DNA of 48,786 nt from Actinomycetota bacterium (lineage in GTDB: Bacteria > Actinomycetota > Actinomycetes > Nanopelagicales > Nanopelagicaceae), in assembly GCA_947489605.1 (NCBI GenBank), contig CANLEG010000003.1, positions 1 through 48,786 of the forward strand, in the 5' to 3' direction. The notes below the pieces were generated by a model. That model saw only the letters and a program-made list of their open reading frames with translations, ran no database searches and was not told the origin of the DNA. The stretch's first letter is position 1; every line of letters starts with the position of its first letter. The position numbers and the translations under genes are program-made. Positions 1,631 to 47,464 of this stretch are shown here, one piece after another.

Positions 1631-2978
1631 TAAACCTTTCGGAAAGCCAAAACCAGGGGCGGCAAGATTAGTTGCATACGATTTGGTCAGTCAGGTTAAT
1701 AGAGGTGGCGCATTTGCAAATTTACGGCTACCAGAACTACTAGATAATTCAAACCTAGATCTACGCGACAGGTCATTTGTTACCGAGCTTGCATATGGCA
1801 CATTGCGAATGCAAGGCAAGCATGATTATGCAATTTCAAAGAAAGCTGATCGACCTATCGAAGAGTTAGATGAAAAGATTGTGGATCTGCTTCGAATTGG
1901 CATTCATCAAATATTTGAAATGCGGGTTTCTGTTCACGCGGCCGTAGGAGAAACTGTTGAAGTAGCTAGAGCTGTAGCGGGTGAATCAAAGGCTACGTAT
2001 ATAAATGCAGTTCTTCGATCGATTTCAGCTGATCTAGATATCTACAATGATTTGGAATCTAACGCGAATATTTCAGATCTTGAAAAACTTTCAATTCTTT
2101 ACTCCCACCCGATTTGGATTATCACTGCATATTATGATCAACTTAAAGACTGGGATGCGGTAACCGATTTGCTTCGACAAAATAACATCCCCGTAGCCCC
2201 ACATATAGTTTCTTGGCCTGGCAAGTCAACGGTATCTGAAATTCTAGAAACCGGGGGAGAGAAACTTGCAATTGGGACTTACTCGGTGATGTCCAACCAT
2301 TTGCCAAACGAATATCCTGCTATCAAAGACAAGCGAGCTGGAATTCAAGACATGGGATCGCAATTAGTCTCGGAAATATTTTTTGCTACAAAGAACAATG
2401 CTCCGCAAAAATGGCTCGACCTTTGTGCTGGCCCTGGTGGAAAAGCAGCTCTGCTACATAACTTATTGCAGGTTGAGAAACCGAACGATGGATTTCTTGC
2501 AAATGAACCAACACTGCATCGTGCCGAACTAGTAGCAAGAGTCGTTCCAAAAAATAAGATTGTCTCTTTCGATGGCCGAGATGTTGCTAGTTTCAAAGAA
2601 ACTTATGATCGAATCCTCATAGATGCGCCTTGCTCTGGCCTTGGAGCCCTACGTCGCCGACCGGAAGCTAGATGGCGCAGGAGTATTAACGATCTTAAGG
2701 AACTTCTTCCCTTGCAACGTGAATTGATCGACGCGGCTTATCAAATGTTAAACCCTGGAGGCATCATTGGGTTTGTAACTTGTTCGCCGTTATTGGCTGA
2801 GACGAAGAGTCAGGTGTTAGACGCAAAGTTCCGCCACAAGGACTTGAGCATTCTAGATATCTCAAAATTTTCACCCTCTGGGCAGACCGGCGTCAGTGAA
2901 GATGGAACCATGCAGTTATGGACACATTTAGATGGTTCTGATTCGATGTTCATGGCGTTGCTTCAAAAATCTGCATAG
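1623..2978 (+). CDS. rsmB: 16S rRNA (cytosine-C5) methyltransferase, RsmB/Sun family
   Basis: NusB-like N-terminus, LCAGPGGKAALL and DAPCSGLGALRRRPEARWRR motifs; overlaps the fmt end. Confidence 0.95.
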   Translation: MSSKPFGKPKPGAARLVAYDLVSQVNRGGAFANLRLPELLDNSNLDLRDRSFVTELAYGTLRMQGKHDYAISKKADRPIEELDEKIVDLLRIGIHQIFEMRVSVHAAVGETVEVARAVAGESKATYINAVLRSISADLDIYNDLESNANISDLEKLSILYSHPIWIITAYYDQLKDWDAVTDLLRQNNIPVAPHIVSWPGKSTVSEILETGGEKLAIGTYSVMSNHLPNEYPAIKDKRAGIQDMGSQLVSEIFFATKNNAPQKWLDLCAGPGGKAALLHNLLQVEKPNDGFLANEPTLHRAELVARVVPKNKIVSFDGRDVASFKETYDRILIDAPCSGLGALRRRPEARWRRSINDLKELLPLQRELIDAAYQMLNPGGIIGFVTCSPLLAETKSQVLDAKFRHKDLSILDISKFSPSGQTGVSEDGTMQLWTHLDGSDSMFMALLQKSA

Positions 2979-3025
2979 TAAATGAAATAGAATCTAATCA
3001 ACGTATTTGACTGGGGGATTGCAAA

Positions 3026-3697
3026 GTGATTCGAATCTGCCCAAGTATTTTGAATGCAGACCGCAGCAATCTGGGTTCAGAGATTTCTAGAATTGCCAAG
3101 CAATCCGATCTTCTCCACCTCGATGTGATGGACAATGTTTTTGTCCCTAATCAGACCTTCACACTCGCTGAAAGTCAGAAAATTATTGCCGAATCAGCGC
3201 TGCCAGTCGATACACATTTGATGATTGCAGATCCCGATGAACAAGCGCATTTGTACGCGAAGGCAGGTTCAAAAAGCGTGACTTTTCATTTTGAGGCGAG
3301 TAAGGCACCAGGTGCCACAATCGCAAGGATTGCAACCGATGGGGCAAGAGTTGGTGTCGCTCTAAAGCCAACAACGCCATTTCACGTGATTGCGCCGTTT
3401 TTGGAAGATATCGACATGTTGTTGATCATGACAGTGGAGCCAGGATTCGGTGGCCAGAGCTTTATGACCGATATGTTGCCAAAGATTCAAGAGGCCCGAA
3501 CCGAAATTGATGCACATCACTTTGGCAAGATCTGGCTACAAGTTGATGGTGGAATCTCATTGGAGACAATCGCTCTGGCGCGATCTGCAGGGGCAGACAC
3601 TTTCGTTGCAGGAAGCGCAGTATTTAAAGCAGATATTCCAGGTGTAATGGTTGATCAATTACGGGCGTTAGCTGAAAATACCAAACCTAGTCAGTGA
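3026..3697 (+). CDS. rpe: Ribulose-phosphate 3-epimerase
   Basis: ICPSILNAD, LHLDVMDN, TVEPGFGGQSF and LQVDGGI motifs. Confidence 0.97.
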   Translation: MIRICPSILNADRSNLGSEISRIAKQSDLLHLDVMDNVFVPNQTFTLAESQKIIAESALPVDTHLMIADPDEQAHLYAKAGSKSVTFHFEASKAPGATIARIATDGARVGVALKPTTPFHVIAPFLEDIDMLLIMTVEPGFGGQSFMTDMLPKIQEARTEIDAHHFGKIWLQVDGGISLETIALARSAGADTFVAGSAVFKADIPGVMVDQLRALAENTKPSQ

Positions 3698-3718
3698 TAT
3701 TTAGGTTAAAATTCACCA

Positions 3719-3982
3719 ATGAAGAACTTCGAATCGTTATGGCTGGAATTAAATCAATTGGCACTTTCTAAGCCAGAAGGTTCGTCCACGGTTCGAGAAC
3801 TTGAATTGGGCGTTCACGCCATTGGAAAGAAGATCATCGAAGAAGCAGGAGAAGTTTGGATAGCTGCTGAATACCAGAGTGATTCAGAGTTAGCTCTCGA
3901 AATTAGTCAATTGCTTTACCACCTACAAGTTCTAATGATTGCTCGTAACATCAAATTAGACGACGTCTATAAGAATCTATAG
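3719..3982 (+). CDS. hisE: Phosphoribosyl-ATP pyrophosphatase
   Basis: [19 protein letters not shown] motif; adjacent to hisG. Confidence 0.95.
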
Positions 3983-3994
3983 TTAGGAAAACAA

Positions 3995-4843
3995 TTGACT
4001 TTAAAGATTGCAGTACCAAATAAGGGCTCGTTAGCTGAAAGTTCTGCGCTAATGTTAAAGGAAGCGGGTTATAGACAACGCAATGATCTACGGGATTTAG
4101 TATTTATTGATCCTGAGAATCAAGTGGAGTTCTATTATCTACGTCCCAGGGATATTGCGGTCTATGTCGGAAGCGGCGAACTTGAGGCAGGAATTACCGG
4201 GCGAGATTTACTTTTAGATTCTGGTGCACCTGCGAGTGAAGTCCTACCGCTAGATTTTGGGCGAAGTACATTTCGTTTTGCGGGTCCTGGTGAGAAGAAA
4301 TTTACCGAAAAAGATCTTGCTGGTAAGCGAATAGCCACTGCATATCCAGGTCTCTTAGAAAGCTTCCTTGACTCTAAAAATTTAAAGGCCACTATCGTTA
4401 AATTGGACGGCGCAGTAGAAAGTTCCATCCGCCTTGGCGTTGCTGATGTTATTGCGGATGTTGTATCAACTGGGGGAACGCTTAGAGCGGCAGGATTGAG
4501 TATTTTCGGAGAAGTTCTTTTAGAAAGTGAAGCCATTCTGGTAACTAGAAACGGAAAAACCATCTCGCCGGCGATTGAAACATTGATCCGTAGATTAAAT
4601 GGCGTAGTGATTGCGCGTCAGTATGTGTTGGTTGATTACGACGTAGAAAATGTAAATTTGGAGAAAGCTTGTGCACTAACTCCAGGTATTGAATCGCCGA
4701 CCATCTCACCACTGCAGAAGAGTGGTTGGAATGCAGTGCGAGCTATGGTTAAACGCTCCGAGATAAATCGTATTATGGATGAACTGTGGCAAGTTGGAGC
4801 ACGTGGAATTTTAGTAACTGATATTCACGCCTGTCGTCTTTAA
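3995..4843 (+). CDS. hisG: ATP phosphoribosyltransferase (long form)
   Basis: LKIAVPNKGSLAE start, ITGRDLLLDSG, C-terminal regulatory domain. Confidence 0.96.
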   Translation: MTLKIAVPNKGSLAESSALMLKEAGYRQRNDLRDLVFIDPENQVEFYYLRPRDIAVYVGSGELEAGITGRDLLLDSGAPASEVLPLDFGRSTFRFAGPGEKKFTEKDLAGKRIATAYPGLLESFLDSKNLKATIVKLDGAVESSIRLGVADVIADVVSTGGTLRAAGLSIFGEVLLESEAILVTRNGKTISPAIETLIRRLNGVVIARQYVLVDYDVENVNLEKACALTPGIESPTISPLQKSGWNAVRAMVKRSEINRIMDELWQVGARGILVTDIHACRL

Positions 4844-4845
4844 AC

Positions 4846-6905: not shown

Positions 6906-7535
6906 ATGCTTTTCGAACTTCTACCGAAGCAATGGCAAGAGGCGCTTCCTTCTTCGAAACAGATACTAAATGAAATAGAGCTATCAGGGAGATATATTCC
7001 CGAGAGCTCAAAAATATTTGCAGCATTTAATCTTCCAATAGCCCAGATAAAGATCTGCATTATTGGTCAAGATCCCTATCCAAACCCAGAGCACGCTATG
7101 GGATTGTCATTTAGTATTCCAAATTCAATTACGAAATTTCCTCCAACGCTCCGGAATATTTTGAAGGAGGTCGAGTCTGATATTGGCTCGGTAATTGAGA
7201 GCGGCGATTTAACTAAATGGCAGAGTAACGGCGTAATGCTTCTGAATAGAGTGCTAACAACCACACCAAACATTAGCGCCGGTCATAAAAATATCGGTTG
7301 GCAGAAATTTACCGACGAAGTTGTCCGATATCTGGGGGAACGGCCAATCGTTTTCATTCTTTGGGGAAATAGCGCAGCCGAACTGGCAAAATTCATCCCG
7401 AAGAGCAATTTAATTCAGAGCGTTCATCCAAGTCCGCTATCTGCTTATCGTGGATTTTTTGGTTCCAAGCCGTTCTCTCGTAGTAACGAGAAGCTCCGCA
7501 AATTAGGAATTACTGAGATGGTCTGGAAAATCTAG
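6906..7535 (+). CDS. ung: Uracil-DNA glycosylase
   Basis: IGQDPYPNPEHAMGLSF and VHPSPLSAYRGFFGSKPFS motifs. Confidence 0.97.
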   Translation: MLFELLPKQWQEALPSSKQILNEIELSGRYIPESSKIFAAFNLPIAQIKICIIGQDPYPNPEHAMGLSFSIPNSITKFPPTLRNILKEVESDIGSVIESGDLTKWQSNGVMLLNRVLTTTPNISAGHKNIGWQKFTDEVVRYLGERPIVFILWGNSAAELAKFIPKSNLIQSVHPSPLSAYRGFFGSKPFSRSNEKLRKLGITEMVWKI

Positions 7536-8199
7536 TGACAATGTTCAAGCTAGTCGCGATCGAATTTCCGATGAACAGCGCAAACATTGCGGTGCCGATT
7601 CCAACAGAACCACCTAAGAGAGCACCAATGATTAAAATAGTAACTTCGATGGAGAGTCGAACTCGTGCGATTCTGATGCCTGTCTTATTGTGGATTGAAG
7701 TCATCAAACCATCGCGGGGACCAGGTCCTAGGCCGCAAGTTATATAAAGAGCAGATCCCATACCAACTAGGCCGATTCCGATTAGAACGTAAAGCATCTG
7801 CACCAGGATATTCATCTCGATTTTTGGAATGTGGTCAACTCCAACCTGGATAAAGACTGCAATTAACGCGATGTTTGCGAGTGTGCCAAAACCTGGACGC
7901 TCTTTCAGCGGTATCCAAAGTAGTAGAACTGCAATGCTCGTAATTGCTGTTGCTTCACCGACTGACAACGGAGTGCGCAAAGAAAGTCCCTGCGCAAAAA
8001 CTGACCAAGGGGAGTTGCCGATTGTTGACTGAATCAAGAGCGCGTCACCGATACCAAATATTGCGAGACCGAAAAACAAGATTGGTAAGTTTTTTAGATT
8101 CACTGACCAGCGCGAGGTCGCGGTCCAAGGGGTTTTGGGAATAGTTCTATGCGGCTTAAGAAATCGACCAATTTCCGCTAAATAGGTTGGCAATTTCAC
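7510..8199 (-). CDS. YczE/YitT-like multi-pass membrane protein
   Basis: Hydrophobic segments, GIGDALLIQSTIGNSPWSVFAQG and CGLGPGPRDGLMTSI; GTG start; 26-nt convergent overlap with ung. Confidence 0.8.
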   Translation of the reverse strand: MKLPTYLAEIGRFLKPHRTIPKTPWTATSRWSVNLKNLPILFFGLAIFGIGDALLIQSTIGNSPWSVFAQGLSLRTPLSVGEATAITSIAVLLLWIPLKERPGFGTLANIALIAVFIQVGVDHIPKIEMNILVQMLYVLIGIGLVGMGSALYITCGLGPGPRDGLMTSIHNKTGIRIARVRLSIEVTILIIGALLGGSVGIGTAMFALFIGNSIATSLNIVTRFSRPSQ

Positions 8200-10227: not shown

Positions 10228-11592
10228 ATGGCGCCCGCTTCATCACAATTACGGCAAGATAGGAGTGTGCCCAACATTAATAACGAAATTGATTTAGACC
10301 TCCTTGAAAAGGAATGCATTTCAATCTGCCAAGAAATGATTCGAATTCCAAGCGTCAATCATGGTGATGGTGTGGGAGATGAGCGAGCCATCGCTGACTA
10401 TGTAGCCCTTAAATTAAAAGAAGTCGGCATAGAAAGCGAGTTGATTGTCACAGGCGAAAATCGTGTAAATGTCGTAGCCCGAATCCCAGGAGTAGATCAA
10501 ACTCGACCTGGCTTGGTGGTGCATGGACATTTAGATGTTGTTCCTGTGAACGCCGAGGATTGGTCTGTTGATCCTTTTGGCGGAGTTATCAAAGATGGTT
10601 ATTTATGGGGTCGTGGCGCAGTTGATATGAAAGATATGGATGCAATGATTATTGCAACTGTTCGAGCATGGAAACGCGCAAATTATCAACCACCTAGAAA
10701 CATACTTCTTGTTTTCTTCGCTGATGAAGAGGCGGGTAGTGAATTTGGGTCTAGGTACTTAGTTGCGAATCGACCTGAGATATTTAAGGGATACACCGAA
10801 GCTATTTCTGAGGTCGGTGGATTTTCGGTAACAATCACGGGCGGACATCGACTTTATTTCATCGAAGGTGCCCAAAAAGGAATTAATTGGTTGCAGCTCA
10901 AAGCAAAGGGCGAAGCTGGGCACGGTTCATTTATTAATCCGAAAAACGCAGTAACGAAACTTGCTGCAGCCGTAGCTCGGATAGGTGCATACGAGTGGCC
11001 TCAGGTTGAAACTAAAACCGGTAAGAAATTCTGGTCAAAAATTGCGGAATTAACCGGAGATAAATACGATCCTTCAGATACTCGTCCGCTTTTGAAGCAC
11101 ATCGGGGGAGCCGCACGAATGTTAGGTGCGACGATTCAGAACACTGCAAATCCAACTATGTTGAACGCTGGTTATAAAGCAAATGTGATTCCACAGCATG
11201 CAACCGCAGTCGTAGATGGCAGATTCCTTCCAGGTTACGAAACCGAACTTATGGATACCGTAAAGCGTCTTGCTGGAGACGAAATCGAAATTGAAATCTT
11301 GGTTCGCGATAAAGCGCTAGAAGTTGATTTTGAGGGTCCTTTGGTAGATGCAATGAAAGCAGCGATCGCTAAATTCGATCCGGAAGGAATACCTGTTCCT
11401 TATCTGATGAGTGGCGGAACGGATAACAAGGCGCTATCTGATTTAGGAATTGTTGGTTTTGGGTTTAGTCCAGTTAAGTTGCCACCAGATTTGGATTTTT
11501 TTGCGCTTTTTCATGGCGTTGATGAGCGAATTCCGATTGACGGATTGAAATTTGGCGTTAAAGTTTTAAACGAATTCCTACAAAACAGTTAA
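10228..11592 (+). CDS. M20-family metallopeptidase (dipeptidase/deacylase)
   Basis: VVHGHLDVVPV, WGRGAVDMKDMDA, FADEEAGSEFG, LMSGGTDNKAL. The ORF-track start at 10138 runs antisense through the tRNA, so ATG 10228 or GTG 10267 is more likely. Confidence 0.9.
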   Translation: MAPASSQLRQDRSVPNINNEIDLDLLEKECISICQEMIRIPSVNHGDGVGDERAIADYVALKLKEVGIESELIVTGENRVNVVARIPGVDQTRPGLVVHGHLDVVPVNAEDWSVDPFGGVIKDGYLWGRGAVDMKDMDAMIIATVRAWKRANYQPPRNILLVFFADEEAGSEFGSRYLVANRPEIFKGYTEAISEVGGFSVTITGGHRLYFIEGAQKGINWLQLKAKGEAGHGSFINPKNAVTKLAAAVARIGAYEWPQVETKTGKKFWSKIAELTGDKYDPSDTRPLLKHIGGAARMLGATIQNTANPTMLNAGYKANVIPQHATAVVDGRFLPGYETELMDTVKRLAGDEIEIEILVRDKALEVDFEGPLVDAMKAAIAKFDPEGIPVPYLMSGGTDNKALSDLGIVGFGFSPVKLPPDLDFFALFHGVDERIPIDGLKFGVKVLNEFLQNS

Positions 11593-13839: not shown

Positions 13840-14509
13840 TGTTTTAGAAACCGGCGAACTCGAAGTTCTTGGTCGGCTAGTTGATGCGTCGAATGCATCA
13901 CTTCTCTGTCAGTTACCAAATGGTTCGCAAGTTATTTATAAGCCGATTGCAGGGGAGCGTCCCTTGTGGGATTTTCCAGATGGTAATTTGGCGTCAAGAG
14001 AAGTTGCCGCATTTTATGTTAGTGAAATTGGTGATTTTAAAGTTGTCCCACCAACAGTTATGCGAGAAGGTCCATTTGGATTAGGTGCAGTGCAAGAATG
14101 GGTAACAACGGCAGCGGATCTCGATGTGATTGAAATTGCGCAGAGTCCAAATGAACAAATCAGGAACCTAGCGCTTTTCGACATCATCATTAACAATGCT
14201 GATCGCAAATTTGGGCATATTTTGGTGACACCTGATAACGCGATTTTCGGTTGCGATCATGGAGTTAGCTTCCATCACGAAAACAAGTTGAGAACAGTAA
14301 TCTGGCAATTCGCTGATTTAAAGCTGACGAGTGAAGAGATAGAGAAGATTGAACTCTTACTTTCTAAATTGGATACAGCCCACTTGGGTAAGTACTTGAG
14401 TGAATTGGAAGTATCTGCACTGTTTGACCGAGCCAATTTGCTCTTGGAAACAAAGAAGTTTGCAGTACCAAACCCAAATTGGCCGGCAGTACCCTGGCCA
14501 CCATATTAA
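13823..14509 (+). CDS. SCO1664-family protein (PI3/4-kinase-like fold)
   Basis: MATVDNVLETGELEVLGRLVDASNASLL..., VIYKPIAGERPLWDFPDG, NNADRKFGHIL, FGCDHGVSFH. ATG 13823 fits the family start better than the ORF-track start. Confidence 0.87.
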   Translation: MATVDNVLETGELEVLGRLVDASNASLLCQLPNGSQVIYKPIAGERPLWDFPDGNLASREVAAFYVSEIGDFKVVPPTVMREGPFGLGAVQEWVTTAADLDVIEIAQSPNEQIRNLALFDIIINNADRKFGHILVTPDNAIFGCDHGVSFHHENKLRTVIWQFADLKLTSEEIEKIELLLSKLDTAHLGKYLSELEVSALFDRANLLLETKKFAVPNPNWPAVPWPPY

Positions 14510-19307: not shown

Positions 19308-20156
19308 ATGTCAGAGTTTAAAGTAGGGGATCGGGTGCAATTAACCGATGCCAAGGGAAAGATGCACACTATAACCTTGCAATTAAATCAAGAGTGGCAC
19401 ACACATAACGGATGGCTTGTGCACAATGAAGTAGTCGGACTTCCTGAAGGAAGCGTTGTAGAAACGACTGGTGGTCTGAAATTCTTAGCCTTTAAGCCTT
19501 TGTTAGCGGATTACGTTCTCGCAATGCCACGTGGTGCAACAATTGTTTACCCGAAAGATGCCGCAATGATCCTTGGATTAGCAGATATAGCTCCAGGTGT
19601 GAGCGTTTTAGAAGCTGGAGTTGGTTCCGGAGCCCTGTCTATCTCGTTGCTTCGAGCAGTTGGAAGTAGTGGAACAGTTGATTCATTCGAAAAACGAGAA
19701 GAATTTGCAACGATTGCAACTAAAAATGTAAATCAATATTTTGGCGAAAACCCTTCCAATTGGAATTTGGAATTGGGCGCGGTTCAAGATTTCGAGCATG
19801 TAAAACAATACGATCGAGTGGTTCTAGATATGTTGGCGCCATGGGAATGTATCGATATGGCAAGCAAAGTTCTGGTTCCTGGGGGAGTATTCATTGCTTA
19901 CGTTGCAACAACAACTCAACTTTCACAGACTGCGGAAGCAATAAAGGCGTCTGCATGTTTTACGGAACCCGAAAGCAGTGAAACGATTGTTCGCGGTTGG
20001 CATCATGAGGGACTTGCGGTTCGACCACAACATAGAATGATTGCGCATACTGCATTCTTAATCATGGCAAGAAGGTTAGCGCCGAATACCATAGCGCCAG
20101 CAAGACGCCGCCGCCCATCTAAGGGTGCTTACGGAACTAATGAAATTGAAAGTTAA
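19308..20156 (+). CDS. trmI: tRNA (adenine-N1)-methyltransferase, m1A58
   Basis: YPKDAAMILGLADIAPGVSVLEAGVGSGALS; actinobacterial TrmI context. Confidence 0.94.
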   Translation: MSEFKVGDRVQLTDAKGKMHTITLQLNQEWHTHNGWLVHNEVVGLPEGSVVETTGGLKFLAFKPLLADYVLAMPRGATIVYPKDAAMILGLADIAPGVSVLEAGVGSGALSISLLRAVGSSGTVDSFEKREEFATIATKNVNQYFGENPSNWNLELGAVQDFEHVKQYDRVVLDMLAPWECIDMASKVLVPGGVFIAYVATTTQLSQTAEAIKASACFTEPESSETIVRGWHHEGLAVRPQHRMIAHTAFLIMARRLAPNTIAPARRRRPSKGAYGTNEIES

Positions 20157-20160
20157 GTAA

Positions 20161-20724
20161 CTACTGAACGCCAATTAGATCTACAACGAAAGCCAAGGTC
20201 TCATTGGGTCCAATTGGTCCACTACCAGTAGCGCCATATGCAAGTTCAGGTGGAATAACTAGGAGGCGCCTTCCGCCAACTTTCATTCCTGGGATACCTT
20301 GCTGCCAACCAGGAATTACTCCGCCTAGTGTGAAATCAAAAGATTGAGATTTCCAAGAAGATTGCAGAACTTCACCAGTGCTCCAGGAAATTAATTGGTA
20401 ATGAGCGGTTAGCGTCGAAGAAACAAGAGCAACTTCACCGGTGCCGACAATTATGTCTCGAGAGACAAGTGTTGTTGGTGCATCACCTTCAGGTTTACCG
20501 ACAGTAGGTTCCATCCCGGCATTTGCTGAAACTGAAATGTATTCGCGACCTGTGTTTGCCATGTCTTGCTCCTCATTACTAGGGTTACTTGAATTATCTG
20601 AAGATTCTGATTTAGGCGATCCACCATCTAGTGAGCAAGCAGTTAATGATGCGCTCAGCGATAAGACTCCCAGGACTAGAAACCCTTTTTTGAAGCTACC
20701 TATGTCTAATTTTAAGCGGTCCAT
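20161..20724 (-). CDS. FKBP-type peptidyl-prolyl cis-trans isomerase, predicted lipoprotein
   Basis: GGVIPGWQQGIPGMKVGGRRLLVIPPELAYG; signal peptide with lipobox-like LTAC. Confidence 0.93.
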   Translation of the reverse strand: MDRLKLDIGSFKKGFLVLGVLSLSASLTACSLDGGSPKSESSDNSSNPSNEEQDMANTGREYISVSANAGMEPTVGKPEGDAPTTLVSRDIIVGTGEVALVSSTLTAHYQLISWSTGEVLQSSWKSQSFDFTLGGVIPGWQQGIPGMKVGGRRLLVIPPELAYGATGSGPIGPNETLAFVVDLIGVQ

Positions 20725-20814
20725 GTTTCTCCAGATTCTAGTTTGATGCTCTATTGCAATTTTGATGCCTGTGTCAGCAATGCGCGAAGGTTACCAAACC
20801 ACTAGGGTTTTCGT

Positions 20815-21750
20815 GTGTCAGATCGAAAAACAGAGCGGCTAATCAATCTCACTTTGGCCTTGCTCGCGACTAAGAGGTATCTCAAGAAGTCTGAAATCTT
20901 GGCAAATGTTTTCGGCTATGAAGGAACCCAAGAGGCTAAAGAGCGGATGTTTGAACGGGATAAGGATGATCTGCGTTCCTTGGGTATTGAAATTGAAGTG
21001 GGGGATTTGGATCCATTTTTCGAAGATGAACCAGGATATAAAATTCCACAGAAATCTTATGAGCTAAACGTTCCCAATCTAACAGGGCGTGAATTGGCGC
21101 TGATTTCCATAGCAGCAAATTTTTGGAACGATTCAGTTCTGGCACCAAATGCCCAATCGGGAATTCGCAAACTTCAGTCACTCGGAATACCTGCAACCTT
21201 AGATTTTGAGTTTCGGATGAAGTATCGTTTTGAGAATCCAACTTTTGTTTTAGAGCAATTGACTAAGGCTATTGGTCAGAAATCTCGCGTTTCATTTGAT
21301 TACGATTCAACCTCCTTAAAAGAGCGGCATCTAGAACCTTATCGAATCGTTTTCTGGAATGGCTATTGGTATCTAATTGGCATGGATTTAGATAGAGCCG
21401 CAGTCAGACTCTTTAAATTGTCTCGTTTTCTAGGCGAATTAACCCTGTCTAAGAAGAAAAATGAATTTGAAATTCCACTTGATTTTAACGTTGCAGATCA
21501 TCTCCCTAAGGTTAATGTGGAAATAGTGAAAAGTGCAACGATAAGAATTCGAAAAGAAGCAGGAATCTTGTTGCGCAATCGCGGACAGTTAATTTCTGAG
21601 GAGAATGATTTTGGTACTTACGAAATCGCATATGAGAATGAGGTCACGTTTTTACGCGAATTGATTTGGCATGGCGTAAATGTTCAGATTGTTGAACCAG
21701 CAGAATTAAAGAGCGCTTTATTGGATCTTCTGAATGGAGTGCTGAAATGA
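20815..21750 (+). CDS. pafB: WYL-domain transcriptional regulator PafB
   Basis: HTH-WYL layout; precedes pafC-tatA-tatC; GTG start. Confidence 0.9.
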   Translation: MSDRKTERLINLTLALLATKRYLKKSEILANVFGYEGTQEAKERMFERDKDDLRSLGIEIEVGDLDPFFEDEPGYKIPQKSYELNVPNLTGRELALISIAANFWNDSVLAPNAQSGIRKLQSLGIPATLDFEFRMKYRFENPTFVLEQLTKAIGQKSRVSFDYDSTSLKERHLEPYRIVFWNGYWYLIGMDLDRAAVRLFKLSRFLGELTLSKKKNEFEIPLDFNVADHLPKVNVEIVKSATIRIRKEAGILLRNRGQLISEENDFGTYEIAYENEVTFLRELIWHGVNVQIVEPAELKSALLDLLNGVLK

Positions 21751-22661
21751 GCGAATCAGCGCTTGACAGAACGGCTCGTGCTCTTGATTTGGTTCCATAT
21801 TTATTGGAGCACCAAGGAATCTCAATACCAGAATTGGCAGAAGCTTTTGGGGTATCTGAAAAGCAGATAAATGATGACCTCGTACTCATACACATGTGTG
21901 GCCTACCTGGATACACTCCTTTGGAATTGATAGACATGTTCTACGAAGATGGTTACGTAACCGTGTCCGACCCACAAAGTTTCAAAAAGCCGAGAAGTAT
22001 GAACAAGATCGAGATGACTTCGCTTCTAGTTTCACTTGATTTGTTGAAATCGCTAAGAACGGATGATGTTGCAAAGGAAATCGAGGCGCTAAAGATCAAA
22101 CTGCAAGAAAATATGCGGTTCGAAAATCCTTTTGTTGTCGTTCAGAATATGGAAAATACTGAAATGGTGGAAGCAATTGAGCGAGCAATTGCAAAGTCAA
22201 CTTTGCTAAGAATTAATTATGCAAGTGGTACAAAAGATAAAACTTCAGTTCGCGATATTTTACCGATAGAGATTTATGTAGCAAACGGTTCTACTTACTT
22301 AAATGCCTGGTGCCAAAGTTCTAAGGGAGATCGCACATTTAGGTTAGACCGGATTTTGAGCTACGAAATTATTGAAGGATCTGTCGTCAACGAAACTAGA
22401 GAGTCGAGCGTCCAAGCTGTGGACTCCTTACCGATTGAACTTCTGGTTTCAAAGTCCGCACGGAATTTCATTGAGGATAATCGCGCAATCATTGGACACA
22501 TACAAGAAGGTGAACAGCTGCGGATTGAACTCAACCCAATCGACCGAGAGTGGCTAGTCAGAACCATTCTCGGATTTGGTGGTCAGATAGAGGTGAGCAA
22601 ACCCAAGGAATTAGCCTTAGAAGTTGTCTCTCGAGCACGCGCAATTAAGGAGTCCTACTGA
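21747..22661 (+). CDS. pafC: WYL-domain transcriptional regulator PafC
   Basis: LDLVPYLLEHQGISIPELAEAFGVSEKQI, WYL region (YLNAWCQSSKGDRTFRLDRI). Confidence 0.9.
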   Translation: MSESALDRTARALDLVPYLLEHQGISIPELAEAFGVSEKQINDDLVLIHMCGLPGYTPLELIDMFYEDGYVTVSDPQSFKKPRSMNKIEMTSLLVSLDLLKSLRTDDVAKEIEALKIKLQENMRFENPFVVVQNMENTEMVEAIERAIAKSTLLRINYASGTKDKTSVRDILPIEIYVANGSTYLNAWCQSSKGDRTFRLDRILSYEIIEGSVVNETRESSVQAVDSLPIELLVSKSARNFIEDNRAIIGHIQEGEQLRIELNPIDREWLVRTILGFGGQIEVSKPKELALEVVSRARAIKESY

Positions 22662-22756
22662 AGCTAGTGGCAGGTCGCTCATTTTTTGGAAAAAAGAACT
22701 AGAATCGGGAATTAGGAAATTGCATTATTTACTAACTATTTGAAGCGGGGGAGAAA

Positions 22757-26116: not shown

Positions 26117-27015
26117 CGCTGATGCTTTTAGATAGCGCGTCGCTCTGGTATCGCGCATATTTCGGAATGCCAGATACATTGCTTTCGCCAAGCGGTGAAC
26201 CCGTCAACGCGATTCGTGGTTATCTCGATATGACATCCAAATTAATCAGCATCTATAAACCGAATCGGTTGGTGGCATGCATCGAAGGGGATTGGCGACC
26301 AAGTTGGCGTGTTGATCTCTTTCCGGAATATAAAGCGAATCGATTAGATGTCGAAGGCGAAGAAGAAGAAGAGCCGGACACCTTGGGCCCTCAGATTCCA
26401 ATTTTGCTGGATTTATTAGAGGCGTTTGGGATTCCACTTGTGGGCGTCGATGATTACGAGGCGGATGACGTTATGGCTTCATATGCGGTTACGGAACCAG
26501 GTCCAACGAAAATAGTCACAGGAGATCGAGACTTATTTCAACTTGTTGATGACAAACGTAAAATTGCGGTTGTCTATCTCGCTAAAGGTATTACCAATCA
26601 CGACCATGTTGATATCAAATGGATCGCAAATAAATATGACATCCCGGGGGAGAGGTATGCACTCTTCGCCATGATCAGAGGAGATGCGTCCGATGGTTTG
26701 CCTGGAATTAGAGGTATTGGTGAGAAAGGTGCCGCAATTATTGCCAAGCAATTCACAAGTTTGCCAGAAGTAATGAAAGCAGCAGAGAAAGATGACGAAC
26801 GTTTGACACCAAATGCCCGAAAGAAACTTTTGGAATCTGCTGAATACGCAAAAATTGCTCCGAAATTGGTTCATTGTGCGTTAGATGTTCCATTGCCTAA
26901 ATTGGATCTTCGCATGCCAAAACGTCCTGTTAATCTAGATGGAATTTATCAGTACCAAAAAGATTACGGCTTAGGTGCCAGCATAGATCGCTTAATTTCA
27001 GCTTTGAATTGGTAA
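26113..27015 (+). CDS. 5'-3' exonuclease (PolI N-terminal-like)
   Basis: DYEADDVMAS, VTGDRDLFQLV, GLPGIRGIGEKGAA. Confidence 0.94.
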   Translation: MTLMLLDSASLWYRAYFGMPDTLLSPSGEPVNAIRGYLDMTSKLISIYKPNRLVACIEGDWRPSWRVDLFPEYKANRLDVEGEEEEEPDTLGPQIPILLDLLEAFGIPLVGVDDYEADDVMASYAVTEPGPTKIVTGDRDLFQLVDDKRKIAVVYLAKGITNHDHVDIKWIANKYDIPGERYALFAMIRGDASDGLPGIRGIGEKGAAIIAKQFTSLPEVMKAAEKDDERLTPNARKKLLESAEYAKIAPKLVHCALDVPLPKLDLRMPKRPVNLDGIYQYQKDYGLGASIDRLISALNW

Positions 27016-27020
27016 CAAAT

Positions 27021-27761
27021 ATGTCGACTCAAGTTTTAATAATTCTTCCTACATTTAATGAAGCGCTAAGTATTCAACAGCATTTATCGACGATTGATAA
27101 ACTCCGTAAAGATCTAGAGACAAATTATTCCATTTCAATCTTGCAAATCGATGATTCTTCTCCGGATGGAACTGCAAAAATCGCTTTGGATATGAATTTG
27201 GCGAATTTTTCACAATTAATTAATCCGAAAAAGTTGGGCCTTGGTCCTGCATATTTAGCTGGATTTAATTGGGGATTGCAACGCGACTTCGATTATTTTG
27301 TTGAAATGGATTCTGATGGCAGCCATTTACCGGCACAATTGGTTGAATTATTAGCAGAATCATCCAAGCATGATCTAGTTATAGGAACACGCTGGATGAC
27401 TGGAGGCAGAATTGAGAATTGGTCGACATTTCGCAGAATACTTTCAAAATTCGGAACAATTTATGCAGCAACTCTTTTAAGGCTTCCAATTAAGGATCTC
27501 ACTAGTGGCTATCGCGTTCTTAGCCGCAACTTCATAGAGTCATTGGATTTAGATTCGATTACAAATAAGGGTTATGGATTCCAGATTGAAATTGCATTGC
27601 AAGCCTATGTGAACGGATTTTCGGTAGGTGAAGTACCAATTACTTTTGTAGAACGAAGCGCAGGGAAGTCCAAAATGAGCGCTGCAATAGCCTTTGAGGC
27701 CCTGATATTCGTAACAAGGACAGGAATCAAGCGTCTGGCTTCGGGTATATATCGCCGATAA
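27021..27761 (+). CDS. Polyprenol-phosphate mannosyltransferase/GT2 family
   Basis: ILPTFNEA, IDDSSPDGT, MDSDGSHLPAQL, DLTSGYRVLSR. ATG 27021 preferred. Confidence 0.92.
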   Translation: MSTQVLIILPTFNEALSIQQHLSTIDKLRKDLETNYSISILQIDDSSPDGTAKIALDMNLANFSQLINPKKLGLGPAYLAGFNWGLQRDFDYFVEMDSDGSHLPAQLVELLAESSKHDLVIGTRWMTGGRIENWSTFRRILSKFGTIYAATLLRLPIKDLTSGYRVLSRNFIESLDLDSITNKGYGFQIEIALQAYVNGFSVGEVPITFVERSAGKSKMSAAIAFEALIFVTRTGIKRLASGIYRR

Positions 27762-27778
27762 TCTACATTATGTCAGAA
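27751..27778 (+). promoter_or_regulatory. dif: Putative dif site (XerCD recombination site / replication terminus)
   Basis: ATCGCCGATAA-TCTACA-TTATGTCAGAA: two 11-bp arms and a 6-bp spacer. Matches 18/28 positions of E. coli dif (GGTGCGCATAATGTATATTATGTTAAAT). Coincides with the coding-strand flip. Confidence 0.88.
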
Positions 27779-30660
27779 TAAAAGAACCTGTTCTTATTAA
27801 TCGCAAGCTCCGATATCGGCAAACACGAACAAACTAAGTTCCTATCCCCGTAAACGCCATCTATTCGCCCTACTGTCGGCCAGTATTTACCAATCGCGCC
27901 CATTTCAGTATTTAAACCAGATGGAAATGCCGCAACCTCACGAGAATATTTACGAGCCCATACAGAACGTAACAAATCAGCACTTGTATGCGGCGCAAAT
28001 CTCAGAGGTGAATCTTCGATAGTTAATTCACCGGCTTCAATATCGGCTATTTCCGCTCTGATTGAGACCATAGCGCTAATAAATCGTTCCAGTTCCCTTA
28101 AGTCTTCAGATTCAGTTGGCTCAATCATCAACGTTCCTGCTACTGGAAAACTAACGGTTGGGGCATGGAATCCATGATCCATTAATCGTTTTGCAACATC
28201 ATCAACTGTAACGCCTGTATTTTTAGTAATAGTTCTCAAGTCGATGATGCATTCGTGTGCGATATAGCCGTTGGCTCCGCGATAGAGAACCGGGAAATGT
28301 GGGTCTAACTTCGCTGCCAAGTAATTAGCAGACAAGATAGCGACTTGAGTTGCTTTTGTTAGGCCATCTCCCCCCATCATTCGAATATAACTCCAAGAAA
28401 TTGGCAGGATGCTTGCCGAGCCGAAAGGAGCGGAACTAACTGGTCCTGGGCCCGTTACTGGTCCACATGAATCGTCTAGTGGATGATTAGGAAGATATGC
28501 GGCCAGATGCGACTTGCAAATTACTGGACCAACACCCGGACCACCTCCGCCATGTGGAATACAAAAAGTTTTATGTAAATTTAAATGTGAAACATCTGCC
28601 CCGAATTTGCCAGGTTTAGCCAGACCCACCAGCGCATTTAAATTCGCACCATCAACATAAACCTGTCCCCCAGCGTCATGAACTAATCCACAGATCTCAC
28701 TAATCGCTGATTCGAAAACTCCATGTGTTGATGGATATGTAACCATCAGTGCCGCTAGTTGACCTTCATACTCTGCAATCTTCGCCTTTATGTCATCGAC
28801 ACTAACGTTTCCTTGTTCATCACACGCTATTACGACAACTGACATTCCTGCCATGACCGCACTTGCCGCATTAGTGCCGTGCGCACTTGAAGGGATTAAA
28901 CAAATCTTTCGATGTTGTTCGCCTTTGGCATCCAGATAATTGCGGATCGCCAACAACCCCGCGAACTCCCCTTGTGACCCAGCATTGGGCTGAAGCGAAA
29001 CTGCGTCATATCCAGTTATCTCAATCAACCAATTCGAAAGTTGGTCGATTAGCTTACGAATTCCAACACTCTGTTCTTTCGGTGCAAATGGATGAAGGTT
29101 TGAGAATTCAGGCCACGTAACAGGGATCATTTCTGTGGTCGCATTGAGCTTCATTGTGCAAGAACCAAGAGGAATCATGGTTCGGTCCAATGCTAAATCC
29201 CGATCTGCAAGATTGCGTAAATATCTCAACATTGCAGTTTCAGAATGGTATGAATTAAAAACTGGGTGCTCAAGGAATCCACTACTTCGCGCAAAGCTCT
29301 TTGCCACTTGGGCAATCGCATCCTTTTTCAATGAAACCTTAAGAATTGAAGCGATCGCATCTAAATCTTGTGCTGTGAAAGTTTCATCAAAGGTCAAACC
29401 AATTACTGATTGACTTTTTATACGAACGTTATAACCTGATTTGAGAAATAATTGCGCCACGGCTTCTGCATTAATTTCACTAATCAGGAACGTATCAAAT
29501 ATCTCACCTTCAGAAACTGAAAAACCAGATGCAAGAAGTGAATCACGAACTGAATGCGCACTTGCCCGAATCTTTTTGGCAATCTCTTGCAAGCCCTTAG
29601 GTCCGTGCCACATTGCATAAAACGCTGACATGACTGCAAGTAATACTTGCGCTGTGCAAATATTAGACGTTGCCTTATCGCGACGAATGTGTTGCTCTCT
29701 CGTTTGTAACGCTAGACGAAGTGCTGGATTTTGATGCGAATCTAAACTTTGACCAACAAGTCTTCCCGGTAATGAACGCTCGAGACCATTTCGAACTGCC
29801 ATGAAACCGGCATGCGGTCCCCCAAATCCCATTGGGACACCGAACCGCTGTGCTGAACCAATTGCGATGTCCGCTCCAACTTCTTGTGGCGTTCTGTAAA
29901 GAGTTAGTGCCATTAGATCTGCAGCAACAACCGCTAACGCAGACTTCGCGTGAATTTCTGCAATCAATTCAGCCAAATCCACAATCTCGCCATCGCTGGA
30001 AATCTGCGCAAAAACAGCGCCAAAGACCGGCAATTTAATTGTTTCAAGATCTTTTAGCGTTGGATTGATTTCTATAACTTCAATATTTAGTGGCGTTGCT
30101 CTTGTTGCAATTACCGCTCGAATCTGTGGGTGCAAACCTTTATCAACTAGAAATACAGCTTCGTCAGCGCCTTGCCATACTCTTCGAGCAAGCGTCATAG
30201 ATTCCGCTGCAGCAGTAGCTTCATCCAACATCGATGCATTTGCAACGTGTAACCCAGTTAGATCTGTAATGACCGTTTGAAAAGAAAAGATTGCTTCCAA
30301 TCGGCCTTGACTTATTTCAGGTTGGTAAGGCGTATAAGCCGTATACCAAGATGGATTCTCTAAAACATTGCGCAGGATGACTGGCGGTGTGATTGTTCCG
30401 TAATAACCCAAACCTATTAAAGATTTGACCACTTTGTTCTCAGAGGCAAGCTCACGCAATTCTGCTATTGCCGCAACTTCCGAAACCGCTTCAGGAAGAC
30501 TCTTAGAAATGTTTTCTGTTAGTGCAATGTTTGCAGGAACGACTTTGGCAATAAAGTCGGTGAGCTTTTTTTCATTTAATTCTTGCAACATGAAGTTGAT
30601 CTGCGCTTGATCCGGCCCAATGTGCCTGTCAGCGAAATCTAAACGAACCGAACTCATCAA
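27763..30660 (-). CDS. gcvP: Aminomethyl-transferring glycine dehydrogenase (P protein)
   Basis: [32 protein letters not shown]. Confidence 0.98.
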
Positions 30661-30714
30661 AGCACTCCCCTAAAGTTATGGAGTATTAACTCCTAATCCT
30701 TGGGGAAGGATAAA

Positions 30715-31248: not shown

Positions 31249-31340
31249 TTGAAACTCACTTCTATGGGGGAAGATCCTTATCGGATTTAAGAGAAGATTA
31301 GTTCTGAAGGTGCCTTTGGGCAACGACCGACACGCAAAAC

Positions 31341-32583: not shown

Positions 32584-32595
32584 ATTCTCCCCTTA

Positions 32596-33090: not shown

Positions 33091-33163
33091 AATCCCCCCA
33101 TCCCTAACCCTCAAACCTTGAGGTTCAACTAAAGGCTGACACTATTCGGAGTTCGCGGGTGGG

Positions 33164-33580: not shown

Positions 33581-34141
33581 TTAAATTTCTCTGAACTCTT
33601 GAAATGCAACGTATGTATATTGCAAAGCGGTGACCAAATATAGGCCCAAGCCCCAAATTGCGAAACCCCAACCTCCGATGAAGAAGACCTGGCCAATTCC
33701 AGAATCCCCAGCAACTAATAGAAAAGGAAATGCGTAGAGGAGATTAAAGGTCGCAGTTTTGCCAAGAAAGCTAACTTCAAATACCCCTGTCCCCCGACGT
33801 CGCTTGATTGCGAGGATAAGGGCCAACCAAAGATCCCGACCGATTAATAAAAGTAACATCCAAAGTGGAACCACATCTTTTATAACTAGTGCAATGACCG
33901 TAGCGGCTATGTATGCACGATCAATTGCAGGATCCAACATCGCGCCAAGAGCAGATTCCTGATTTAATGCACGAGCTAATTTGCCATCTACATAATCTGA
34001 GATTGCTCCAACTGTGAGAATAACCAGAGCCAACAGAACATTGTCCCAAGAGATATATGCCAGAAGAAAGAAAGGAATCGCAAGAGCTCTGATTCCGGTT
34101 ATCCCATTTGGGATAGTAAGAATTTCCTTACGGCTAAACAA
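33581..34141 (-). CDS. CDP-alcohol phosphatidyltransferase family protein
   Basis: DYVDGKLARALNQESALGAMLDPAIDR fits D-x2-DG-x2-AR-x8-G-x3-D-x3-D. Confidence 0.92.
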   Translation of the reverse strand: MFSRKEILTIPNGITGIRALAIPFFLLAYISWDNVLLALVILTVGAISDYVDGKLARALNQESALGAMLDPAIDRAYIAATVIALVIKDVVPLWMLLLLIGRDLWLALILAIKRRRGTGVFEVSFLGKTATFNLLYAFPFLLVAGDSGIGQVFFIGGWGFAIWGLGLYLVTALQYTYVAFQEFREI

Positions 34142-36174: not shown

Positions 36175-37248
36175 TTAATTTTTGCGAGGACTGTGCGCTA
36201 AGAATCCCTTTGAAACTAGATGCTTCTGTAATTTTTCAGCGTCAGAAGCTGAAAGTGCAAGAGTTATTAAACCCACCTCTTGACCCGGGCTATGTTCCAT
36301 AGATAAATCTTCAACGTTTACTTCTATCGCGGCGCATTCGTTGAAAATACGAGCCAAACCACCGGGCTTGTCATCTATAACAATTGGCACAAAGGTGTAA
36401 TCCCGTTTCGCTGATCCATGCTTGCCTGGAATTTTGGCGCGACCCGCTCTGCCCTCGTTAAAGAAATCGATAATTGCATTGCGATCCCCTGACGAAATGG
36501 CCTGATTCAGAGACGAAAGTCGACTTATTACTTCAGAGATTTTAGGACTTATCTCTTTAGAATTTGCGAGGAGTAAACTGCTCCAAAGTTCTGGCTCCGA
36601 ATCAGCTAAACGCGAGACGTCTCTCAAACCTTGGCCTGCCAGATTGAGGTGCTCGGCTGATTCATCCTTCAGACTCCCACCCAGCGCTGAACTTAAAATT
36701 TGGGGCAAATGAGAAATGGCTGCCACAACTGAATCGTGAGTACCAGAATCCAATTCATAAATTGTTGAACCGAGGGCACCCCCAAGATCCTGAGCCGCTT
36801 TGAGCGCCTTCGCACTCGATAACTTTGTTGGAGAAACTATCCAAGCTCGGGATTCAAAGAGATCTGACCGAGCACTTTGGGGTCCTGAGGTTTCTCTTCC
36901 CGCCATAGGATGAACGGAGGCGAAGTTGCCTGCGAGCTCCGGAAAAGAATTGACTTCAAGTAAAAGATTAGACTTCACACCACTAACTTCTATAAATAGA
37001 GCTGCAGGGTTGTTGGAAAATTCGTGTTTTGCGATGTCAAAAATTGTTTCAGGTGGAGTCGCAATGATTACTAAGGCTGGATTTCCCCCCTCTTTGCTCG
37101 ACTCCCCTACCAAGTCAGTGGCCAAACGAAGATTCATTTCATTCGTGTCCGCCAAAATCAAACCGATTCCTAATTCCTTCAAGCGCAGAGCAATTGAAGT
37201 TCCAATTAGGCCGCAACCTATGATTTTGACTGGACCGCTTAAGCTCAT
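36175..37248 (-). CDS. tyrA: Prephenate dehydrogenase with C-terminal ACT-like domain
   Basis: IIGCGLIGTSIALRLKELG, HPMAGRETSGPQSA, AISHLPQ. Confidence 0.93.
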   Translation of the reverse strand: MSLSGPVKIIGCGLIGTSIALRLKELGIGLILADTNEMNLRLATDLVGESSKEGGNPALVIIATPPETIFDIAKHEFSNNPAALFIEVSGVKSNLLLEVNSFPELAGNFASVHPMAGRETSGPQSARSDLFESRAWIVSPTKLSSAKALKAAQDLGGALGSTIYELDSGTHDSVVAAISHLPQILSSALGGSLKDESAEHLNLAGQGLRDVSRLADSEPELWSSLLLANSKEISPKISEVISRLSSLNQAISSGDRNAIIDFFNEGRAGRAKIPGKHGSAKRDYTFVPIVIDDKPGGLARIFNECAAIEVNVEDLSMEHSPGQEVGLITLALSASDAEKLQKHLVSKGFLAHSPRKN

Positions 37249-37885: not shown

Positions 37886-38620
37886 TTATAGATTTAACTT
37901 TAAAGCTTTAAATAGGTTTTCCAATTCAACCGAGTTCAAGGAGCGCCATCTGCCTTCCTTGGTGTCCCCCATTGATATCGGACCGAAATCAGTTCTGATT
38001 AAGCGAAGAACTTCGATTTCAAGAAACTCGAACATCCGCCGGATTATATGAAAACGACCTTCATGGATTGAGACCTCAACCCACCGATGCTTGGGGTTGA
38101 TCTCTCGAATTACCTTGACCTCAAGTGCCCGGGCCATGCCATCTTCCAGGAGAACACCTTTTAGGAGTTGCTCAATATTCTCCTTTGAAAAAGGACCCTC
38201 GATCTCCAGAAGGTACTTCTTGATCATTCCATAGCTAGGATGCGTAGCTCGGTGCGTAAAGGCTCCGTCGTTGGTTAGAAGGATTAGCCCCTCGCTATCT
38301 TTATCCAATCGACCAACGTGAAAAAGTCTCTCATTTCGCGTTTTAAAGTAGTCCCCCAGATTTGAACGTCCATCAGGGTCGGACATAGTGGAAATAACTC
38401 CTCTAGGTTTATAAAACGCTAGATAAGTTTTAGTCTTCGATTGCTTTATTGCTTCACCGTCAACCTCAACTTTAGAGATTTCTGGGTCAAATTTCGTTCC
38501 TAATTCGAAGATCTGCGAACCGTCCACGCTAACCCTGCCTTCTAGAATCATCGCTTCACTTGCGCGACGACTGGCAATTCCGGCATCAGCTAATATTTTC
38601 TGGAGACGTACAAGTGCCAT
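37886..38620 (-). CDS. rluB: 23S rRNA pseudouridine synthase, RluB/RsuA family
   Basis: RLQKILADAGIASRRASEAMI, HVGRLDKDSEGLILLTNDG. Confidence 0.94.
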   Translation of the reverse strand: MALVRLQKILADAGIASRRASEAMILEGRVSVDGSQIFELGTKFDPEISKVEVDGEAIKQSKTKTYLAFYKPRGVISTMSDPDGRSNLGDYFKTRNERLFHVGRLDKDSEGLILLTNDGAFTHRATHPSYGMIKKYLLEIEGPFSKENIEQLLKGVLLEDGMARALEVKVIREINPKHRWVEVSIHEGRFHIIRRMFEFLEIEVLRLIRTDFGPISMGDTKEGRWRSLNSVELENLFKALKLNL

Positions 38621-38717: not shown

Positions 38718-39275
38718 TCAATCTGTAAGGCTAGAAAGAACCTCATCTAGAGCGTCTACATCAGGCAGGAATGGCGCCAGTGCTGGCAAATCCGACACTT
38801 GGTTTAGCCCTAATTTTTCTAGGAAGAAAGAGGTTGTGGAGTAGAGAATTGCACCCGTTTCGTGCTCAATCCCGGTCTCTTCAACTAGTCCACGAGTAAC
38901 TAGAGTCTTCATAACAGCTTCAACATTTACGCCTCGGATAGCTGAGACTCGGGCTCTAGAGACCGGCTGACGATATGCAATCACGGCCAAGGTTTCAAGT
39001 GCTGCTTGAGTTAGACGGGATTGCTGCCCATCTAGAACGAATTTTTCGACTACCGGAGCCAGGTCTGGATGGCTATAAAAGCGCCATCCCCCAGAAACCT
39101 GACGTAATTCAAACCCTCGTCCACTGGCTTCGTACTCCCTGGCGAGTGAATTCAGGGTTTCTACAACAGTTTCTGTAGGAGTCTCGGTGATCTGTGCCAA
39201 AATTATCTCCGACACGGGTTCATCGACCACCATAAGTATGGCCTCAAGCGATCTATTGAGTTCAAGATTAGACAT
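38718..39275 (-). CDS. scpB: Segregation and condensation protein B
   Basis: LEAILMVVDEPVSE, TQAALETLAVIAYRQPVSRARVSAIRGVN. Start moved to ATG 39275, overlapping the scpA stop. Confidence 0.94.
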   Translation of the reverse strand: MSNLELNRSLEAILMVVDEPVSEIILAQITETPTETVVETLNSLAREYEASGRGFELRQVSGGWRFYSHPDLAPVVEKFVLDGQQSRLTQAALETLAVIAYRQPVSRARVSAIRGVNVEAVMKTLVTRGLVEETGIEHETGAILYSTTSFFLEKLGLNQVSDLPALAPFLPDVDALDEVLSSLTD

Positions 39276-41515: not shown

Positions 41516-41534
41516 GCCGTAAATAACTTAAGCT

Positions 41535-44091
<2,557 letters not shown>

Positions 44092-45849: not shown

Positions 45850-46679
45850 CCTTCAATAGGTAGCTTGAACTTTGCAACTAATCGGTCGGTGAAATTTCCA
45901 GCATTGACATAGGCAAGTTGAATCTTTGCTTTTTCTTTGGTTATAACTATTCGGTCGCTGAGTTGAATTTCCTCTTGACGGAGCCCATCAGCGGAAATCT
46001 GCGCATCATTTGAAAGCACATCAATAACAATTTCACACTCAGGTGATACAACCATGGGTCTAGAAAAAAGCGCGTGAGCAGCTAACGGCAACAGAACTAG
46101 CGCACTCACTTCTGGCCAAACAACTGGGCCACCCGCTGAAAAAGCGTAGGCCGTTGATCCAGTTGGTGTCGCGCAAATAACTCCGTCGCAACCCCACTTA
46201 GAAAGTGGCCTACCATCTATTTGCACAAAGAGTTCGAGCATTCGGGTTGAACTTCTTTCAACAACGACTTCATTTAAAGCCCAGCCTTGCGAGATTACAG
46301 AACCATTTCGAATAATTTCATATTTCAGAGTCAGTCGGGGCTCTCGATGGATAGAACCACTATCAACAGCTTTAACGATTTCTGCAATTGATGGCTCAGA
46401 TATCTCAGCGAGGAAACCAACATTTCCTAAGTTGATTCCGATGATTGGAACTTCATGACCTTTTACAATCTCGGCAGCTCTGAGAATCGTTCCATCTCCA
46501 CCAAGAACGATGACCGCTGAGATATCGGAGATTTCAGCAATTGCCTTACTTCCAGCCAACAGATCTGGATGATTCGAAACTACTTCAATATCTTTCTTTA
46601 AAAACTCCGCTGCTAAATTATTTGCAAATTTGATTGCCGCAGGCCGAGTTGGATGGACCACTAACGCTATTTTTTTCAT
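45828..46679 (-). CDS. nadK: NAD kinase
   Basis: VLGGDGTILRAAE, INLGNVGFLAE, TPTGSTAYAFSAGGP. Start moved to ATG 46679. Confidence 0.96.
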   Translation of the reverse strand: MKKIALVVHPTRPAAIKFANNLAAEFLKKDIEVVSNHPDLLAGSKAIAEISDISAVIVLGGDGTILRAAEIVKGHEVPIIGINLGNVGFLAEISEPSIAEIVKAVDSGSIHREPRLTLKYEIIRNGSVISQGWALNEVVVERSSTRMLELFVQIDGRPLSKWGCDGVICATPTGSTAYAFSAGGPVVWPEVSALVLLPLAAHALFSRPMVVSPECEIVIDVLSNDAQISADGLRQEEIQLSDRIVITKEKAKIQLAYVNAGNFTDRLVAKFKLPIEGWRGESS

Positions 46680-47464
46680 TGTGGCCCTTTCGCTATTGCT
46701 AAATCTAAAGCAGATTCCACTAATTCCGATGCCCCACGCTTTAGCCACAAGAAATACTCCACATTTCCCGATGGACCCGGTAGCGGACTCGCTATAACTC
46801 CGTTACAACCTAGTCCCATGTCATATGCGCAGTCAGCCACTTCCATAACCGCATTTTTTCGCAGCGCGCTATCTCTTACGACTCCCCCAGCGCCCAATTT
46901 TTCACGTCCTACTTCAAATTGAGGTTTTACCATCACAAGAAAATCAGCACTAGTTCTAGATACCGACACGAGCGCTGGTAAAACTAAAGTTAAAGAAATA
47001 AACGATAAATCTGCAACAACTAGATCCACAGGTTCGCCAACTTGCTCAATCGTTAAGTGCCGAACATTGGTGCGATCTAAAATCGTTACGCGAGGATCGT
47101 TTCTCAGCTCCCATGCCAATTGTCCATATCCGACATCAACTGCCACGACAGATTGGACATCACGTTTCAAAAGTACATCCGTGAATCCTCCGGTAGAAGC
47201 ACCCGCATCCAGAGCTCTTTTTCCACTTACAACAATTTCTGGAAATGCATCCAGCGCTCCTGCAAGCTTATGACCACCGCGTGAAACAAAATCATCTCTG
47301 TTTCCTTGGATGGTTATAGACGTTTCGGCATCTACTTGAGTTGCCGGCTTCGAGGCCGGAATTCCAATAACCAAAACCGAACGAGATTCGATTAAATCTG
47401 CAGCATGATCCCTAGAACGCGCCAATCCACGTCTCACCAATTCTGCATCTAATCTGGTTTTCAT
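46676..47464 (-). CDS. tlyA: TlyA-family rRNA methyltransferase
   Basis: RLDAELVRRGLARSRDHAADLI, ALDAGASTGGFTDVLL, MVKPQFEVG. Confidence 0.95.
   Translation of the reverse strand: MKTRLDAELVRRGLARSRDHAADLIESRSVLVIGIPASKPATQVDAETSITIQGNRDDFVSRGGHKLAGALDAFPEIVVSGKRALDAGASTGGFTDVLLKRDVQSVVAVDVGYGQLAWELRNDPRVTILDRTNVRHLTIEQVGEPVDLVVADLSFISLTLVLPALVSVSRTSADFLVMVKPQFEVGREKLGAGGVVRDSALRKNAVMEVADCAYDMGLGCNGVIASPLPGPSGNVEYFLWLKRGASELVESALDLAIAKGPQ

Follow-up and report, generated by a model that had tools for sequence, protein, structure and literature searches.

The window, meaning the whole analysed stretch of 48,786 nucleotides from a member of the Nanopelagicaceae, carries a dif site (the Xer recombination site, ATCGCCGATAATCTACATTATGTCA) with a single mismatch to the actinobacterial dif query pattern, for which zero matches were expected by chance. 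This site is kept in 24 of 27 congeners and in all 113 near-complete genomes of the family, and the GC-skew switch of the window coincides with it, the cumulative skew reaching its maximum at 27744. The dif site is genuine. The genome to which the window belongs (G000) is an 852 kb draft of 44 contigs, 58.55% complete and with a GC content of ~44%; its relatives range from 1.1 to 2.2 Mb, and the closed relative G044 comprises 1,161,863 bp. The GC content, the single 5S gene, the size of the relatives and the actinobacterial dif are consistent with the acI/Nanopelagicales, for which low GC content and single rRNA operons have been described (PMC5301498).

Two features of the surrounding gene order were recorded. 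The sole 5S rRNA gene of the window, transcribed towards dif, lies 20–25 kb from it, as it does in seven closed relatives (G044, G045, G046, G065, G069, G109 and G034), with an eighth, G119, having its sole copy ~67 kb from dif. Ribosomal RNA genes are usually found near the origin; here, the sole 5S gene presumably marks a sole rRNA operon at the terminus instead. On the left of dif, a trmI-like gene is followed only by an FKBP-like gene and then by pafB/pafC-like WYL regulators, with no proteasome or pup genes between the trmI-like and pafB/pafC-like genes, which is where these genes usually sit in Actinobacteria.

Both sides of dif are populated with a G-rich motif, the polarity of which flips at dif (Table 1). 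GGGGGA points towards dif at 24 sites and away at one, with 11 sites on the plus strand and none on the minus strand to the left, and 13 on the minus strand and one on the plus strand to the right. GGGGAG and its purine-preceded form RGGGGAG are each found at a ratio of 16:0 (toward:away), the octamer CTGGGGGA at 9:0, and GGGGA, at 56:5, is the most skewed pentamer of the window. Together, GGGGGA and GGGGAG make up 31 distinct dif-ward sites and one exception. The initial annotation had reported the GGGGGA sites, including the plus-strand exception, and the nine CTGGGGGA octamers, and all were recovered with the polarity it described, save that the TCCCCC sites to the right of dif each start one base below the C-run starts it gave; GGGGAG was absent from its motif list. 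The GGGGGA within the 5S gene is probably constrained by the RNA rather than by polarity.

Table 1. Motif sites, dif and neighbouring features of the window, with loci from related contigs
Feature	Position	Strand	Orientation or remark
RGGGGAG	1540..1546	+	toward dif
GGGGGAG (GGGGGA + GGGGAG)	2253..2259	+	toward dif
CTGGGGGA	3011..3018	+	toward dif
CTGGGGGA	4470..4477	+	toward dif
CTGGGGGA	7332..7339	+	toward dif
RGGGGAG	8008..8014	+	toward dif
GGGGGAG	11104..11110	+	toward dif
RGGGGAG	13951..13957	+	toward dif
trmI-like, FKBP-like and pafB/pafC-like genes	19308..22661		
CTGGGGGAG	19879..19887	+	toward dif; includes published octamer TGGGGGAG
GGGGGA	21000..21005	+	toward dif
GGGGGAG	22747..22753	+	toward dif; between pafC-like and tatC genes
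GGGGGAG	23119..23125	+	toward dif
GGGGGA	24976..24981	+	toward dif
GGGGGAG	26646..26652	+	toward dif
dif	27751..27775	+	motif polarity flips
GGGGGAG	28368..28374	-	toward dif
CTGGGGGA	28666..28673	-	toward dif
RGGGGAG	28966..28972	-	toward dif
GGGGGA	29818..29823	-	toward dif
RGGGGAG	30665..30671	-	toward dif
GGGGGA	31266..31271	+	away from dif; sole exception
RGGGGAG	32587..32593	-	toward dif
GGGGGA	33093..33098	-	toward dif
GGGGGA	33790..33795	-	toward dif
GGGGGA	37084..37089	-	toward dif
RGGGGAG	37102..37108	-	toward dif
GGGGGA	37965..37970	-	toward dif
CTGGGGGA	38352..38359	-	toward dif
CTGGGGGA	39087..39094	-	toward dif
GGGGGAG	41660..41666	-	toward dif
CTGGGGGA	43742..43749	-	toward dif
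CTGGGGGAG	46882..46890	-	toward dif; includes published octamer TGGGGGAG
5S rRNA gene	48546..48662	-	sole 5S copy
GGGGGA	48575..48580	-	within 5S rRNA gene
Facing CTGGGGGA pair, ~627 bp apart	G000:C26:2278 / 2906	+ / -	
Facing CTGGGGGA pair, ~627 bp apart	G005:C7:3422 / 4048	+ / -	
Small RecB-like PDDEXK_1	G109:C1:637453-638181		
Small RecB-like PDDEXK_1	G065:C1:657149		
Small RecB-like PDDEXK_1	G069:C1:645872		
Small RecB-like PDDEXK_1	G034:C1:1050709		
Small RecB-like PDDEXK_1	G119:C2:492927		

Dinucleotide-preserving shuffles of the window gave, on both strands, a mean of 12.2 GGGGGA (sd 3.6), and a mean of 0.69 CTGGGGGA with a largest count of 3. Markov models of orders 2–4, fitted on the dif-ward strand and thereby including the GC skew, predicted 0.4–1.1 copies of CTGGGGGA against the nine observed, and 12–24 of GGGGAG/GGGGGA against 40 observed towards dif. 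As these expectations fall short even with the skew built in, chance is excluded.

Terminus gradient and form of the motif

The gradient was followed over full length in G044 and G000. In G044, with the arms pooled, GGGGAG stands at 0.57 per 10 kb and a skew of 15:7 near the origin, and reaches 4.80 per 10 kb and 24:0 near dif. In the draft genome, contigs were oriented and their distances from dif assigned by shared gene order with G044 (475 reciprocal best hits), independently of the motif; the combined density of the two hexamers climbs ~4.5-fold towards dif, from 1.64 per 10 kb to 7.29, and their skew from 28:10 to 54:1. The polarity inverts at dif in two further genomes as in the window: in G034, (T/C)GGGGGAG is found exclusively on the plus strand from 220,276 to 1,061,043 and on the minus strand from 1,063,395, switching within 2.4 kb of the dif at 1,062,105, and in G046 the dif at 623,326 lies inside the interval of the switch, 618,892 to 633,235.

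Genome-scale motif counts drew on 690 kb of the 852 kb making up G000, on G044 in full, and on the 200 kb to either side of the G109 dif. When 3,912 hexamers of G044 were scored for terminus-ward skew and terminus gradient, taking the GC-skew minimum as the origin, GGGGAG ranked first and GGGGGA second, and the best pentamer was again GGGGA. Splitting GGGGA by its neighbouring bases identified RGGGGAG as the sharpest form: the dif flanks of ten congeners and the window together hold 139 copies towards dif and none away, from AGGGGAG (72:0) and GGGGGAG (67:0), and ratios of 83:3 were found in G000, 99:9 in G044 (55:2 within 150 kb of dif), and 104:1 in G109 within 200 kb of dif. The family-wide core is GGGGA, with a purine before and a G after. 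In the congeners, 24–45% of sites are shared at ~74% identity and density is similar, a pattern that is no more than suggestive of site turnover.

The initial annotation had placed the core in CTGGGGGA, a proposal that was rejected, as this octamer ranks top for skew in the window only, stands at 9:1 in G044 with no gradient, and accounts for just 19 of ~213 motif matches in G000, nine of these 19 oriented copies falling in the window. CTGGGGGA is a local, minor subset of the RGGGGAG/GGGGGA motif. A facing pair of CTGGGGGA recurs in two congeners (G000 and G005; Table 1) and therefore represents one conserved locus that is an exception to the polarity rule.

Nor does the claim of novelty hold. 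Octamers with a GGGGGA core pointing to dif are already published for Actinobacteria as architecture imparting sequences (AIMS), of the forms G(A/T/C)GGGGGA and (T/C)GGGGGAG (Hendrickson & Lawrence 2006, as relayed in the Corynebacterium papers PMC2830990 and PMC3164646), with 856 leading-strand against 61 lagging-strand copies counted in C. aurimucosum. In G109, the top two octamers by skew in the 200 kb to either side of dif, CGGGGGAG (32:0) and TGGGGGAG (29:0), recovered the published (T/C)GGGGGAG without prior input, and this form is found at 40:0 in G000, 23:1 in G044 and 61:0 in the same part of G109.

The other option that had been put forward, a Chi-like hotspot of recombination recognised by the helicase-nuclease AdnAB, would share with the motif the character of a strand-biased, G-rich octamer, and an adjacent pair of proteins consistent with AdnA and AdnB (~1,070–1,095 aa, with PDDEXK_1) is encoded in G000 and in each of the ten relatives examined. 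However, a gradient towards the terminus is not expected for Chi; AdnAB is not known to have an established Chi site, and the E. coli Chi, GCTGGTGG, stands at 59:30 in G044. A density and strand bias that both climb towards the terminus are precisely what distinguishes AIMS from chi (PMC5993296), and the steep gradient seen here fits AIMS/KOPS, making a Chi-like role very unlikely. Separately, a small RecB-like PDDEXK_1 protein (~260–310 aa) is encoded ~9–12 kb from dif in genera g5, g9 and g10 (Table 1); in G044–G046 and G000, the PDDEXK_1 matches were the two AdnAB-like proteins only, with no small RecB-like protein.

Selection beyond gene orientation, codon usage and G-richness

Replication and transcription run the same way for 70–84% of genes, and the leading strand is rich in G, so the polarity might have no function and simply reflect gene orientation, codon usage and this G-richness; in the leading genes of G044, taken genome-wide, the 169 matches do equal the 171 expected when synonymous codons are shuffled within each gene. 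Within 150 kb of dif, these genes contain 86 against 57.8 expected. Lagging genes reverse the codon expectation, with 48 matches towards dif (expected 16.6; z +7.9) and 9 away (expected 33.1; z -4.4) in G000, and 42 towards (expected 15.2; z +6.9) and 13 away (expected 53.5; z -5.3) in G044, so the motif is raised against coding tendency. Genes were mechanical ORF calls, which add noise and should favour neither polarity.

GGGAGG, GGAGGG, GAGGGG and AGGGGG, which reorder the same bases, show no comparable toward-dif excess in the lagging genes of G000 or G044. Intergenic matches in G000 stand at 32:3, and contigs almost without GC skew are still fully polar, such as C6 (skew -0.012; GGGGGA 0/8, GGGGAG 0/7). 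The codon shuffles and lagging-gene counts speak against a gene-orientation or codon artefact, and the composition-matched permutations against G-richness alone; both were rejected, and the by-product explanation is very unlikely. Neither gene orientation nor codon usage nor G-richness accounts for the motif polarity, which is selected. The refuting checks that the initial annotation set for itself leave the signal in place, and the terminus-pointing, KOPS-like motif family it proposed therefore stands as a real selected motif of a known actinobacterial kind, here extended to the family and refined, and not as the discovery of a new signal.

FtsK-gamma as the candidate reader, and known polar signals

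The KOPS of E. coli are read by FtsK-gamma, which steers the pump to dif (PMC2680272, PMC5357621), with N1296, R1300 and E1303 taking part in the reading (PMC2533119). The gamma domain (PF09397) is encoded in contig C14 of G000 (E 1.6e-25) and was present in all the genomes examined from the family and the phylum. In the sampled helices (G000:C14, loci L102–L116 and L157–L186), the recognition helix reads GFAKAGRLMD in the family, as opposed to GYNRAARIIE or GYNRAARMIE in solved FtsK gamma structures, such that N1296, R1300 and E1303 align with Ala, Arg and Asp. The position of E. coli Asn1296 is occupied by Ala in 15 of 15 family members and by Ala, Ser or Thr in 30 of 30 phylum members, never by Asn. 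This change would fit, as a correlation, a changed word in which N is fixed as G and the 3' GGG is dispensable.

Which protein reads the motif does not follow from polarity by itself, and the definition of AIMS is silent on it, many polar octamers elsewhere having no known reader (PMC5993296). The motif might accordingly guide some other terminus factor, such as an SMC unloader, a fork trap or a nucleoid protein; against this, the polarity switches at dif, the target of FtsK/Xer, FtsK-gamma is universal in the genomes tested, and the G-rich word resembles KOPS, and we regard another factor as unlikely. The polarity, the terminus gradient, the independence from codons and gene strand, the switch at dif and the presence of FtsK-gamma are all observed. 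It is likely that the window matches are copies of the actinobacterial AIMS, best written RGGGGAG/GGGGGA, read by FtsK-gamma and orienting its translocation. Selection holds the motif on the dif-ward strand, more densely near dif. Septal FtsK, through its winged-helix gamma domain, is most likely the reader; FtsK would load on it in one orientation, pump towards dif, and there activate XerCD, allowing dimer resolution and the completion of segregation.

Rather more tentatively, it is somewhat more likely than not that RGGGGAG is the working KOPS of Actinobacteria, read by an FtsK-gamma helix in which Ala/Ser/Thr replaces Asn1296, in a phylum-wide joint change of word and reader. A literature search found no test of FtsK-gamma recognition of the AIMS motif for any actinobacterium. 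The alignment offers a residue-level hypothesis for how actinobacterial FtsK may read another word than its E. coli counterpart, one that laboratory species such as Corynebacterium glutamicum or Mycobacterium smegmatis would allow to be examined. It is also apparent that strong selection maintains the actinobacterial terminus-pointing word, now sharpened to RGGGGAG, in genomes that are small, streamlined and low in GC.

Among known systems, the SRS octamer of Bacillus SpoIIIE/SftA, GAGAAGGG, is likewise a leading-strand word that sends an FtsK-family pump to dif (PMC5357621), and has no polarity in G044 (10:10). KOPS (GGGNAGGG; E. coli, V. cholerae) has in common with the motif a G-rich polar word, a switch at dif and an FtsK with a gamma domain, and GGGGAG equals its first six bases with N as G; however, the 3' GGG is not needed here, N other than G is barely polar (GGG[ACT]AG 290:221 against RGGGGAG 83:3 in G000), and the full consensus is rare and weakly polar (13:3 in G000, 18:9 in G044). 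The actinobacterial AIMS share the GGGGGA(G) core, the leading-strand excess, the terminus-ward rise in both abundance and bias (the three marks set out in PMC5993296), and the phylum. They differ in that the hosts here are streamlined genomes of low GC content (40–49%), and in that AGGGGAG is as polar as GGGGGAG in the genus of the window, which makes RGGGGAG a better description of the signal than either published octamer form.
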